DNA of 64,000 bases, from the NCBI RefSeq assembly GCF_900113045.1, contig NZ_FONY01000027.1, positions 1 through 64,000 of the forward strand, given 5' to 3'. The position numbers were made by a program, and so were the translations under genes. This stretch comes from Thermoflexibacter ruber. GTDB lineage: Bacteria > Bacteroidota > Bacteroidia > Cytophagales > Thermoflexibacteraceae. The notes below the pieces were generated by a model, which saw nothing but the letters and a program-made list of their open reading frames with translations, had not been told where the DNA came from and did not search any database. Positions within the stretch are counted from its first letter, which is position 1; every line of letters starts with the position of its first letter. Shown here piece after piece: positions 18,162 to 47,615 of the stretch.

Positions 18162-21100
18162 ATGACAACGCCCAATAAAATACTCAATCCTCAAAATCAT
18201 CAGCTCATTGCCCAACTCATCAGCTTGGCAGAAAACTATCCTGACCAATACGAAAAAATCAGGGAACATTTATCAATTGACAATGAGCAATCAACAACTA
18301 ACAACCAACAACCAACAACTTCAAACCATCGCAACAGCGAACCGTTCAAGCCATCGCAAACCCCTGTATTAGGCATCACAGGCACAGGCGGGGCGGGTAA
18401 GTCCTCTTTGGTAGATGAGTTGGTACGTAGGTTTCTTTTATACACAGAAGAAAAAACCGTAGCTATTATCTCTGTCGACCCTTCCAAGCGCAAAACGGGA
18501 GGCGCACTGCTTGGCGACCGTATCCGTATGAATAGCATTAATAATCAGCGAGTTTATATGCGTTCTTTGGCGACTCGTCAGTCCAATCTGGCACTAAGCA
18601 AGTACGTCAAAGATGCCATAGACATCTGCAAGGCGGCAGGTTTTGACCTCATTATTGTAGAAACTTCGGGCATTGGGCAGTCCGATACAGAAATTACCGA
18701 ACACGCTGACGTTTCTCTTTACGTCATGACCAGCGAATACGGGGCAGCTACGCAGCTGGAAAAGATTGATATGCTGGATTTTGCAGATCTGATTGCAATT
18801 AATAAGTTTGATAAAAGAGGCTCGCTTGATGCCCTCAGAGATGTGAGAAAGCAGTATCGCCGCAACCGCAACTATTGGGAAGGCAAAGATGAAGACCTGC
18901 CTGTGTACGGAACTATCGCCAGCCAATTCAACGACTTGGGAATGAATATTTTGTTTGGAAAAGTCATGGAAAAGTTGGGTATTAATTACAAATTACTAAT
19001 GAATAATGACCAAGCACAGTCTGACAATCTAATAACGGCAAACAACCAACAATTAACAACCGCAAACAATCTCAATCAACTTCAAACAAATGTAATCATT
19101 CCCCCCAACCGAGTACGCTACTTAGCAGAAATTGCAGAAAATAGTGATAGCTATGACCGTTTTGTAGAAGAGCAAGTGCATTTAGCACGAAAAGCCTACA
19201 ATTTATATGGAACTATCGAGACCTGCAAGGTTTCCAAAACCTTACAGGTCTTAGTATTACCTGAGAAAATAGAAAACTTGGAAAACGAATCAGAAATCGT
19301 CAAATTCTTAGCACAGGAATACGAAAAAACGGTTTCCCAAATAGACTATGCGTGTCGTCAAAAACTACAAAATTGGGCAAAAACAAAAGCACTTTTCACT
19401 GCGGAAAAATATCAATTCAAAGTACGTGATAAAATCATAGAGCAAGACCTTTATACAGAAACACTCTCTCACCTCAAAATTCCCAAAGTTGCCCTGCCCA
19501 AATATCAAGATTGGGGAGATATTTTGAAGTGGATTCTGACCGAAAATGTAGCGGGAGAGTTCCCGTATTCCGCAGGTGTTTTCCCACTCAAACGAGAAGG
19601 CGAAGACCCTGCGCGTATGTTTGCAGGCGAAGGTAACGCAGAGCGTACTAACAAAAGATTTCATTTCTTGTCTATGGGAATGCCCGCCAAAAGGCTTTCC
19701 ACCGCTTTTGATTCTGTAACTTTGTACGGAGAAAATCCAGACCGCCGTCCTGACATTTACGGAAAAGTAGGCAACTCTGGCGTAAGCATTTTTACCCTTA
19801 ACGAAGCCAAAAAATTGTACTCTGGCTTTAACCTTTGCAATCCAAATACCTCCGTTTCCATGACTATCAACGGTCCCGCCCCTATGATTTTGGCTTTTTT
19901 CATGAATACAGCAATAGACCAACAATGCGAAATTTACATTAGAAAAAATGGATTATTGGAAGAAGTGGAAAGAAAGATAAAAGAAATATATGCCAATTTA
20001 CACTTGACAGGTTTTAAAAACCTGTCAGGTGTGAAACCTCAATATAACGCCCCCCTTCCCGAAGGTAATGACGGTTTAGGCTTGCTACTTTTAGGCGTAA
20101 CAGGCGACCAAGTGCTTGATAGAGAAGTCTATGAAAAAATAAAAGCAGAAACCTTGCAAGTAGTTCGTGGAACGGTGCAAGCTGATATTTTGAAAGAAGA
20201 CCAAGCTCAAAATACCTGTATTTTCTCTACGGAATTTGCCTTGCGAATGATGGGAGATATTCAAGAATACTTTGTCAATCATAAAGTTAGAAATTTTTAC
20301 TCTGTTTCTATTTCAGGTTATCATATTGCCGAAGCAGGGGCAAACCCCATTTCTCAGTTGGCATTTACCTTAGCCAATGGTTTTACTTTTGTAGAATATT
20401 ACCTAAGCAGAGGTATGCACATTGATGATTTTGCACCAAATTTGTCTTTCTTTTTCTCCAATGGCATGGACCCCGAATATTCGGTCATGGGCAGGGTAGC
20501 TCGCCGAATCTGGGCTAAGGCAATGAAATACAAGTACAAAGGCAACGACAGAAGCCAAAAACTCAAATACCATATCCAAACCTCTGGTCGCAGTTTGCAC
20601 GCTCAAGAAATCGCTTTCAATGACATCAGGACAACTTTACAAGCCCTCTATGCAATTTATGATAACTGTAACTCCTTGCATACCAACGCTTATGATGAGG
20701 CAATTACTACCCCAACAGAGGAAAGTGTAAGACGTGCCTTAGCGATTCAGTTGATTATCAACCACGAGTTAGGCTTAGCTAAAAATGAAAATCCTTTACA
20801 AGGCTCTTTTATCATAGAAGAACTCACAGACTTAGTAGAACAAGCTGTTTTACAAGAATTTAGAAATATCTCAGAGCGTGGCGGCGTACTTGGGGCGATG
20901 GAGCGAATGTACCAACGCAGTAAAATCCAAGAGGAAAGCCTCTACTACGAAACCCTCAAACACGAAGGCAAACTCCCTATCATTGGGGTAAATACTTTTC
21001 TTGACCCTAATGGCAGCCCTACAATTATCCCACAAGAGGTAATTCGTAGTACTATAGAAGAAAAAGAACTCACCATCAAAGACTTAGAAAACTTCCATGC

Positions 21101-21266
21101 CTTTCATGCAGAAGAAGCAAAAATAGCCTTGAAAAACCTACAAAGCACTGCCGTAAACAACGGAAATATCTTTGAAAGCCTGATGGAAGCGGCAAAAGTC
21201 TGTTCTTTGGGGCAGATGAGCCAAGCTTTATACGAAGTAGGTGGGCAGTATCGCAGGAATATGTAA
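18162..21266 (+). CDS. icmF: Fused acyl-CoA mutase IcmF lacking the B12-binding domain
   Basis: 1034-residue fusion of a MeaI-type G-protein chaperone and an acyl-CoA mutase, the IcmF architecture that interconverts isobutyryl-CoA and butyryl-CoA. The P-loop GTGGAGKSS is at 74-82, followed by [26 protein letters not shown] and INKFDKRG. The mutase barrel runs from about 470 to the end ([58 protein letters not shown]). Normal IcmF starts with a 130-145 residue cobalamin-binding domain with DxHxxG; here it is absent and no such motif is in the chain. Four in-frame inserts coincide with DNA repeats. Promoter and leader palindromes lie upstream. Confidence 0.88.
18274..18326 (+). repeat. AAC-rich repeat tract inside icmF, copy 1
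   Basis: An AACAACCAACAA-type tract ending in CAACTTCAAAC encodes the Asn/Gln/Thr-rich residues at about 38-55, just before the P-loop. The same words recur at 19000-19091. The composition is unlike the flanking conserved coding sequence and resembles simple intergenic repeats of Bacteroidota. Confidence 0.55.
19000..19091 (+). repeat. AAC-rich repeat tract inside icmF, copy 2
   Basis: Contains AACAACCAACAA and CAACTTCAAAC like copy 1, and encodes an Asn/Gln/Thr-rich linker at about residues 280-310 between the G-protein domain and the following helical region. The frame stays open. Confidence 0.55.
19220..19250. repeat. REP-like hairpin inside icmF
   Basis: GACCTGCAAGGTTT (19220-19233) and AAACCTTACAGGTC (19237-19250) pair at 13 of 14 positions around a 3-base loop. 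The hairpin encodes about residues 353-363 ([11 protein letters not shown]). The shape is that of an intergenic palindromic repeat rather than a protein-driven sequence. Confidence 0.65.
20001..20031. repeat. Second REP-like hairpin inside icmF
   Basis: CACTTGACAGGTTTT (20001-20015) and AAAACCTGTCAGGTG (20017-20031) pair at 14 of 15 positions around a single base. It encodes about residues 614-623 ([10 protein letters not shown]), placed just before the conserved [20 protein letters not shown] segment, where other IcmF proteins as I recall them have no such insert. Confidence 0.65.
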
Positions 21267-38209: not shown

Positions 38210-39736
38210 TTATTTTTTCAAGATTTTCATCTCCACCCTTCTGTTTTTCTGTCTTCCCGGTTCCGTCCTATTGTCTGCGATAGGTCTGTCGCCGCCGTAA
38301 GCTACCGTTTTGATACGAGATTCTTTGATGCCTTCCTTAATCAGATAATTTTTAACGACAATAACCCTTTGTTCGGAAAGTTTTTGATTTTTTGCGGGGT
38401 CGCCTACGTTGTCTGTATGCCCTGAAAGTTCTATTTCTACTTTGGGGTACTTTTTCATAAACTCCAATAGTTTTTTCAATTCATCATAGGAACTTGGCAA
38501 AAGTTCTGGGCGACTTTGCCTGAACAAGATATTTTCTAATTGAATAATATCTCCTTCATGTACTTCCTCAATCTTGATGTCTTTCAATACATCTTTCTTA
38601 GGTTCTTCTTTGACAGGTGGCGTAATTACCACTACGGGAGGTTCTTCTTTTTTAGGTTCTTCCTTCACGGGAGGTGGCGTAATCACTGCAACAGGAGGAG
38701 TTTCTTCTTCTTTTTTCTCTCTCCATAGGTTTACTGTGCCGTCATAGCTTGCGGTAGCGATGACATTTTCCGTGGGGCTAAAGCGAGAAATTCTCACTAT
38801 GCGTGTATGACCTGTTAGCGTGCTAATTTGCTTCCCGCTCCCTACGTCCCAAAGTTTGGCAACTGTCCCTGAGGCAGAACTTACCAGATATTTGCCATCC
38901 TTACTAAAAGAAGCCCCACTGTAATTTCCCGGGACAGTTACTTGGAAGCTATTGGTAATTTGCCCTGTGGCACTGTTCCATATATTGACCTTTCCGTCAT
39001 CGCTCCAAGTAGCTACTGTATTGAGTTGCGGTCCTACTACTACGTCGTTCAAATAACCCTCGTCATAGCGAAAATATTTGGCTAAAACATCAGTTTTCAG
39101 GTCAATAAAATCCACCAGATGTCCTACGGTAATCACCAAGTATTTTTCATCTCCAGAGATACACCCTCCTGTAATTGTACCATACCAACGTCCATCTTCG
39201 TAATTGGTGGAGAATACTGCATCGGCAGGGCGAATACTTCCTGAGGCATCAGGCTGTATTTGTCCTTTCATAATGTAGCCATTATCTCCCCCAAAATAGA
39301 CATATCTACTGTCAGGAGAAAACACGACAAAGGAAGAGGAAACAAGCTCTCTCCCGTCATAGTTTACAAAGGGTTTGTTTTTGAAGGTGGCTAAAAGTCT
39401 CCAAGATTTAGTATCCCAAACTGCTACACTTCCGTCTTCGCTTGTGCTTGCCAGCATAGAACCACTTTTATTGAAAGTTACTTCTAATACTCTCCTTGTA
39501 TGACCATTGATAGATTTTTCTAATTTTCCTGTTTTTACATTCCAAATCAGGATATTACCAAACTGGTCGCCACCTGCCAAATATCTGCCATCTGGATTAA
39601 ATCTTATATTTTGGACTTCGCCTTTATTACCTTGTAGGTTAAATTCTATCTTGTACTCCTGTGCCTTTCCCTTCCTAAAAGGCAAAACAGCCCCAAGTAA
39701 TAAAAAAGCTAATAGGAAAAATCTGTGTCTTATCAT
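38210..39736 (-). CDS. WD40 repeat and OmpA-domain fusion protein
   Basis: 508-residue exported protein. A signal peptide is followed by a WD40 propeller (about 30-345) with repeats ending IWNVKTGK, VWDTKSWR, IWNSATGQ, LWDVGSGK and NLWREKK, then a Pro/Glu/Lys-rich linker (repeated PPPVKEEPKKEEPP-type units), then a C-terminal OmpA/MotB domain with ELSGHTDNVGDPAKN, LSEQRVIVVKNYL and NRRVEMKIL that should bind peptidoglycan. The architecture suggests a periplasmic interaction platform tethered to the cell wall. It ends 9 bases from the convergent TonB receptor gene. Confidence 0.85.
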   Translation of the reverse strand: MIRHRFFLLAFLLLGAVLPFRKGKAQEYKIEFNLQGNKGEVQNIRFNPDGRYLAGGDQFGNILIWNVKTGKLEKSINGHTRRVLEVTFNKSGSMLASTSEDGSVAVWDTKSWRLLATFKNKPFVNYDGRELVSSSFVVFSPDSRYVYFGGDNGYIMKGQIQPDASGSIRPADAVFSTNYEDGRWYGTITGGCISGDEKYLVITVGHLVDFIDLKTDVLAKYFRYDEGYLNDVVVGPQLNTVATWSDDGKVNIWNSATGQITNSFQVTVPGNYSGASFSKDGKYLVSSASGTVAKLWDVGSGKQISTLTGHTRIVRISRFSPTENVIATASYDGTVNLWREKKEEETPPVAVITPPPVKEEPKKEEPPVVVITPPVKEEPKKDVLKDIKIEEVHEGDIIQLENILFRQSRPELLPSSYDELKKLLEFMKKYPKVEIELSGHTDNVGDPAKNQKLSEQRVIVVKNYLIKEGIKESRIKTVAYGGDRPIADNRTEPGRQKNRRVEMKILKK

Positions 39737-47540: not shown

Positions 47541-47615
47541 TTTAGCCACGAATGACACGAATTTTCACGAATGGTTCAAGGTTTAGCCACGAATGACACG
47601 AATTTTCACGAATGG
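47541..47615. repeat. Tandem 34-bp repeat, two copies
   Basis: Two identical 34-bp units, starting TTTAGCCACGAATGACACG and ending TTCACGAATGG, at 47541-47574 and 47582-47615, period 41. Related 32-bp units occur at 59206-59283. The second copy lies just upstream of the DUF4837 start at 47638. Confidence 0.85.

Follow-up and report, generated by a model that had tools for sequence, protein, structure and literature searches.

The icmF gene of Thermoflexibacter ruber encodes a fused isobutyryl-CoA mutase, and four short stretches of its coding sequence have the appearance of repeats. The question raised by this locus is whether such stretches represent ordinary protein sequence or dispersed repeats that have entered a conserved gene at the DNA level while its reading frame was kept. 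RPE elements of Rickettsia are palindromes lying in frame inside genes of diverse function, where they are tolerated as extra peptide, and a first-pass annotation of the present locus had named them as the closest precedent. The window referred to below is the whole stretch of 64,000 nucleotides that was analysed (positions 1 to 64,000 of contig NZ_FONY01000027.1), and the repeats of icmF were followed from it into the rest of the genome and into the genomes of relatives.

Methods

Contigs of T. ruber are designated by C and a number and genomes by G and a number; G001 and G002 belong to the same genus as T. ruber (G000), G003 to another genus of the same family, G004, G007, G009 and G011 to the same family and G014 to another family. 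The census of palindromes was performed using BLAST with a two-copy consensus, and 43 places were classified; as 40 of the 46 candidates (elsewhere 40 of 102) were scored, the 43 places are a lower bound. A palindrome was scored automatically as genic when it lay in an open reading frame (ORF) of at least 150 aa with 15 codons on either side.

For the statistical controls, 227 ORFs were codon-shuffled in a sample of 304 kb, consisting of the window and 240 kb of contig C75; the sample is not blind, the window containing the finding and C75 having been known beforehand to contain matches. The reversed-pattern control gave 7+21 matches in the T. ruber genome against 16+19 for the heptamer pattern, and since YAACNNN arrays overlap with CAAYNNN it is not independent, so that codon shuffles were used instead. 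In several other genomes the reversed control exceeds the pattern, and the per-genome counts there are therefore not readable as counts of the CAAYNNN family.

Results and discussion

The icmF gene and its four repeat sites

The gene, a related domain encoded elsewhere and the four sites are as follows.

icmF, 18162..21266, + strand: 1034 aa, fused isobutyryl-CoA mutase (GTPase + mutase part)
Separate B12-binding domain, C57:104869-105294 (L426): open frame, 171 aa, away from icmF
Site 1, 18274..18326, + strand: sense heptamer (CAAYNNN) array, 18-residue peptide, before the G domain; pattern matches, TRF period 7
Site 2, 19038..19091, + strand: degenerate heptamer/CTCAAAC array, 18-residue peptide, after the G domain
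Site 3, 19220..19250, + strand: palindrome, 10-residue peptide, in a linker
Site 4, 20001..20031, + strand: palindrome of the ACCTGACAGGTTT family, 11-residue peptide; many genomic copies

A domain profile search places the G domain (PF03308) and the mutase domain (PF01642) in one chain, as in fused IcmF proteins; the NF045497 model scores 1492.7 bits on the product, slightly under its cut-off of 1500, and 4xc6 is among the related solved structures. The N-terminal B12-binding domain that also characterises fused IcmF is missing from the icmF of the window. This domain is split off in T. ruber, G002 and G009, and fused in G003 and most of the other relatives aligned.

Two AAC-rich tracts with common strings had been reported in the gene, and the counts bear this out: AACAACCAACAA occurs three times in the window, in icmF only (18300, 18307 and 19041; 0.01 expected from shuffles), and CAACTTCAAAC twice, at 18316 and 19077 (0.02 expected). 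The tracts are best described as 7-base arrays with the unit CAAYNNN. The units of site 1 read CAATTGA, CAATGAG, CAATCAA, CAACTAA, CAACCAA, CAACCAA and so on, with a TRF period of 7 over 18288-18319, while the tract at 19038-19091 is more degenerate, with three clean units accompanied by CTCAAAC-like units. The two near-perfect hairpins lie exactly where they had been annotated, at 19220-19250 and 20001-20031, and are palindromes with 14-base arms and at most one mismatch. As RNA, the first folds at -19.8 kcal/mol (z -6.3) and the second at -25.0 kcal/mol (z -6.9). Six palindromes of that grade (loops of up to 6 bases) are present in the window, the icmF pair being the only genic ones.

All four sites are variable linkers in an alignment of 30 IcmF proteins. 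Their description as linkers at domain boundaries holds for sites 1, 2 and 4, which lie at or near such boundaries, but not for the 19220 hairpin, whose linker falls between predicted helices of a poor model. The AlphaFold model, computed from 30 sequences with a mean pLDDT of 60.7 and too poor to prove disorder, places the inserts in predicted coil and gives pLDDT values below 50 to residues 45-64, 277-319 and 359-362, as it does to conserved parts too. Identity to both same-genus proteins amounts to 33-40 of 40 aa per block in residues 641-1000, against 12 of 36 and 13 of 39 in residues 281-320. Residues 361-400 (window 19240-19360) match G003 at 29 of 39 positions and the same-genus proteins at 6 of 20 and 6 of 23; being closer to G003 than to its own genus, this segment may reflect local exchange or recombination, or loss in the sister species.

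The corresponding positions in the relatives are occupied by a variety of sequences, the types of hairpin and repeat being assigned by eye. In G001 and G002, sites 1 and 2 are filled by different CAAY-rich tracts, and the position of the T. ruber hairpin of site 3 by heptamers. Site 4 holds a AACCCTTAGGGTTTTACAAAACCCTAAGGGTT palindrome in G001, a CTCCC...GGGAG-type repeat in G002 and short linkers in most of the 29 relatives aligned. Hairpins are found in G003 at sites 2, 3 and 4 (CCTTGnnAGG type) and in G009 at sites 3 and 4 (CnCCGCAAGGGCTTAAAGCCCTTGCGGnG type). A search for hairpins of the site 3 type returned one match in T. ruber and 13 per strand in G003, so that this subfamily is mainly that of G003. 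The same residues encoded by different DNA, which would have spoken for ordinary protein sequence, were not encountered, the aligned relatives being without those residues there. The stretches had not been known from other IcmF proteins; their residues are absent from the relatives aligned, but the 19220 hairpin has a positional counterpart in G003 and is thus not private to the species. No sign was seen that the repeats spread within the gene, as the first-pass annotation had proposed: the pattern resembles independent arrivals in tolerant linkers, where sister species have other repeats.

The palindrome family

Both kinds of repeat have further copies in the genome, both icmF hairpins as well as the heptamers. 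The palindrome is about 31-38 bases long (by-eye consensus TTTACACCTGACAGGTTTnnAAACCTGTCAGGTGTAAA). Ten of the 43 places lie in a sufficiently long ORF and 33 do not, a few of the latter having weak stems. Seven were accepted as genic:

icmF
C41: N6-methylase
C121: valyl-tRNA synthetase (ValRS)
C77: CHAT protein
C75:113763: methylase-like
C52: FAD/FeS oxidase
C20: PSD1 protein

Three candidates were dropped, namely C77:108895, whose doubtful 155-aa ORF is built from the repeat region, C24:53838, whose ORF start is doubtful, and C75:256320, which has no real hairpin and also lies outside the 42-copy tag count given below. A further genic palindrome, CCCTGCCCCCTCCCCGAAGGAGAGGGGGCAGGG, is present at G000:C75:81696-81728, with a CTCCC...GGGAG look as in genes of G002.

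The reading frame through the genic palindromes gives (H)LTGFxNLSG(V) in six of the seven, that of C52 giving KPVRSLRPGRS. As the coding fraction of the sample is 0.89-0.90 and most of the palindrome places are non-genic, the palindromes are depleted from genes. Those in genes number five in the 304 kb, against 0, 2, 0, 0, 0, 0, 0, 0, 0 and 0 in ten codon shuffles (mean 0.2). Of 59 genomes of the order, that of T. ruber included, 11 contain the exact pattern CCTGNCAGGTN{2,9}ACCTGNCAGG and none the reversed control.

A RAYT-type transposase gene at about C77:108269-108883 has copies of the palindrome on both flanks. The NF047646 model matches it with 52.3 bits (E 5.6e-14), below the NCBIfam cut-off of 80, and PF01797 gives no match to it. 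Two other Y1_Tnp genes of T. ruber lie near an unrelated palindrome (C116) and apart from any (C59). Among the four Y1_Tnp loci scanned in relatives, those of G001, G002 and G009 have no palindrome within about 1.5 kb, and that of G007 has palindromes at a distance of about 1 kb. A reverse transcriptase gene (RVT_1) stands just upstream of the RAYT-like gene in the 107-109 kb region of C77 (L070:225-1217; 1575-2189).

The palindromes share with REPs a length of 20-40 bases, many mostly intergenic copies and their presence on both sides of a RAYT gene. The tag GTAG (CTAC on the opposite side) is found within 6 bases of a stem end in four of 42 copies, including the copy behind the RAYT and the CHAT copy, and CGTC in none of the 42, two apparent instances being joins of the left and right flanks; by this tag test the family is neither a GTAG nor a CGTC REP. 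The RAYT is probably the mover of the palindromes, this being the simplest reading.

Heptamer arrays: census and strand

The 4-unit pattern identifies 14 arrays in the T. ruber genome, 13 of them in ORFs and all of these in sense orientation, one intergenic (C64) and none antisense. The initial description of the stretches as intergenic repeats therefore suits the palindromes, which are mostly intergenic, but not the strong heptamer arrays of this genome, most of which lie in genes. Genes carrying heptamer arrays include the following.

C27: uvrA
C40: RND pump
C42: metG
C61: OmpA-like protein
C77: smc
C78: TauE exporter
C80: FG-GAP protein
C112: polA

In the same genus, 4 of 5 arrays of G001 and 8 of 14 of G002 lie in ORFs (12 of 19 in total), again all sense, and no antisense array was found in genes among the strong arrays of the genus (T. 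ruber, G001 and G002). These counts are non-independent where arrays lie in orthologous or paralogous genes, and the arrays at C75:172910 and in C149 of G002 are so close to the beginning of their ORFs that they may be upstream of the real start codon. The first unit begins in codon phase 0, 1 and 2 in six, five and four of 15 entries, an even spread as expected of a DNA-level origin.

The less stringent 3-unit pattern gives 77 matches in T. ruber. The two antisense genic ones (C63 and C78:93448) have units unlike those of true arrays, and the sense matches C33:8371, C52 and C75:54340 also look like chance. Intergenic arrays flanked by tandem genes differ from genic ones in having no clear preference for a strand, 24 being co-directed with the genes and 15 opposed.

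The 4-unit pattern is absent from 33 of the 59 genomes, T. ruber being among the 59. Outside the genus, arrays can be entirely intergenic: with ORFs of at least 150 aa and the loci taken, the genic arrays number 0 of 15 in G040 (9 loci), 7 of 23 in G037 (20 loci) and 0 of 7 in G015. G014 has 9 sense and 11 intergenic arrays in 17 loci examined from 84 pattern matches. When the ORF limit is set at 100 aa and the loci are in part different, one antisense genic array is found in G040, nine sense in G037 and five sense in G014. In four loci of G030 and G020, a self-complementary array (L359) was counted once as sense and once as antisense, and three arrays are intergenic. In the ORFs L399, L420, L421 and L425 of G014 the arrays stand just before a C-terminal YPNPN- or HPNPN-type motif, which we take to be a type IX secretion sorting domain.

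Two other repeats were noticed in the window, namely a CACGAATGACACGAATTTT array at 47547-47614, which overlaps a 379-aa ORF at its 5' end, and a 57-base repeat of about two copies at 38592-38698, in a 508-aa ORF on the minus strand.

Other genes compared with relatives

Fourteen other insert-bearing segments were compared with relatives. In nine of them a net insertion is apparent when they are set against one or more relatives (UvrA, RND pump, MetRS, SMC, TauE, methylase, ValRS, CHAT and FAD oxidase), four show none against the relatives aligned (C80a, C110h, C112h and C20p), and no relative was found for one (C75p). To judge from the four segments without net insertion, there may be arrays that took the place of earlier linker residues or converted them.

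The insert of the valyl-tRNA synthetase comprises 13 residues absent from 1gax and is 12 residues longer than its G003 counterpart, G009 having TPQGLEALAGL at this spot. A single stretch of the SMC head exceeds that of 3zgx by 58 residues; the SMC loop that bears the insert contains a CTCCCAGAAGGGGAGGG repeat in G002, and in G003 and G009 it is just a short native one. The FAD oxidase carries the palindrome in G001, another repeat in G002 and neither in G003. Different repeat families thus occupy one site among sister species in valyl-tRNA synthetase, SMC, FAD oxidase and icmF. Neither an empty site within one species nor a target duplication was seen. In polA of G002 (L435), GAGCGGAGTGCCGCCCACACTGACAACGGC occurs twice in frame in the linker which holds heptamers in T. 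ruber.

Origin of the repeats in icmF

We regard it as highly probable that the four stretches are dispersed repeats which entered icmF at the DNA level and were kept as frame-preserving, tolerable linkers. Repeats would arrive at the DNA level, and the survivors would be those that keep the frame and encode a tolerable linker. The palindromes, mostly intergenic and probably moved by the RAYT, have open frames, and a few of their copies have persisted inside genes. The same tolerant loops would be struck repeatedly, which would allow repeats of different families to occupy one site in sister species.

For the heptamers the length of the unit has a particular consequence. Since 7 equals 1 modulo 3, a regular array yields one heptapeptide cycle in all three sense frames; the frame is thus of little matter for the peptide, while the array as a whole must still have a length divisible by three. 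The sense peptide is hydrophilic (TTNNQQP-like), whereas an antisense array would give a hydrophobic one (GCWLLVV-like). The insert peptides are presumably translated, to judge from the sequence, and selection for soluble linkers would be enough to account for the strand bias, no special mechanism being needed. A stronger proposal, that the genus has a standing process which writes at least four unrelated repeat families into shared hot-spot loops of housekeeping proteins, with sense-only heptamers arising through strand-biased, transcription- or RNA-linked insertion and not through selection alone, appears unlikely.

An alternative to the entry of dispersed repeats is that only the palindromes are mobile and that each array grew where it stands, a short CAA-rich seed having been lengthened by replication slippage. 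Neither a transposase nor common flanks were seen with the heptamers, the arrays are degenerate and unlike from site to site, and they build up where linkers tolerate growth, all of which would suit slippage. A slip of one unit (7 bases) nevertheless breaks the frame, and yet arrays are present in many genes, and a common vocabulary of units is found in unrelated genes and between genes. Growth in place is accordingly a possible origin of the arrays, to be held tentatively.

It could also be argued that the AAC tracts are ordinary N/Q/T-rich linkers shaped by pressure on the protein, their 7-base look being a by-product of codon use. The sense codons AAC, CAA and ACA favour such strings, and the relatives of C80a, C110h and C112h have linkers of like length and other sequence. 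However, the 304 kb contain 10 sense and no antisense genic 3-unit matches, where 200 codon shuffles give 0.22 and 0.15, and five genic 4-unit matches, where the shuffles give none; as matches overlap, the 10 represent five arrays (two in icmF and three in C75, one of these probably by chance) and the five represent two. The heptamer unit moreover stands in all three codon phases, similar arrays are found between genes, and the five same-family genomes (G003, G004, G007, G009 and G011, two of them about 89% complete) have no 4-unit match. An origin from pressure on the protein is on these grounds improbable.

That the icmF hairpins serve as functional RNA or DNA signals, in translation pausing, mRNA processing or as regulator sites, and are translated only incidentally, might be suggested by their strong RNA folds and by the counterpart of the 19220 hairpin in another genus. 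Against this, site 3 of G001 and G002 has heptamers and no hairpin, most of the 29 relatives aligned have short linkers at site 4, and the sites of other genes are filled by different repeat families; this function is very improbable. Artefacts of assembly or binning, conceivable for a draft genome of 123 contigs whose nearest named relatives are metagenome bins, are scarcely credible given the intact frame in seven palindrome-bearing and about ten heptamer-bearing genes and the like behaviour, partly at identical loops, of three same-genus genomes.

Relation to known repeat systems

Entry of dispersed repeats into genes has several parallels. The likeness to RPE, drawn from their description, is that of a palindrome in frame in unrelated conserved genes and absent from relatives, which holds for ValRS, N6-methylase, CHAT and FAD oxidase against G003 or G009 and for icmF by alignment; the difference is that the present repeats belong to environmental Cytophagales and are mixed with a tandem heptamer family using like loops. 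The Rickettsia precedent remains valid, although REPs inside genes have a wider distribution, being described in uvrA, polA and tRNA synthetases of other bacteria (PMC3733652), and the palindromes described here are, to that extent, a new case of known behaviour. The resemblance to the REP/RAYT system lies in short hairpins, mostly intergenic with a minority in ORFs, and in a RAYT-like gene flanked by copies (PMC3733652), whereas the GTAG/CGTC tag is missing from most of the palindrome copies.

Direct heptamer repeats of the TAACTGA type are recorded from Beggiatoaceae, Cyanobacteria and Bacteroidetes; their forward array contains an in-frame stop and most lie between genes, as do 12 of the 14 sets in F. 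litoralis (PMC4679880). The present arrays resemble them as 7-base tandem units in Bacteroidetes genomes, but have the unit CAAYNNN, are sense and open, and lie in ORFs in 13 of 14 strong T. ruber cases, so that they are not of the TAACTGA type (PMC4679880). The RU elements of enterobacteria are likewise intergenic repeats with open frames forming part of genes, but are MITE-like units of 103-168 bp (PMC2759123), unlike the 31-base palindromes and 7-base arrays in linkers considered here. Among the papers listed in literature searches, none describes CAAY heptamer arrays in coding genes of Bacteroidota by title or abstract, and heptamer arrays that are exclusively sense and lie at shared hot spots have the look of a new variant.

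The present analysis extends protein-coding palindromes from Rickettsia and the other species listed in PMC3733652 to an environmental genus of Bacteroidota. To these it adds a family of tandem heptamers, all sense frames of which are equivalent by virtue of the period. With different repeats in loops shared by sister species, the rate of repeat entry into genes becomes measurable, and the same loops could also show which loops of SMC, UvrA, MetRS, ValRS and IcmF tolerate insertion.
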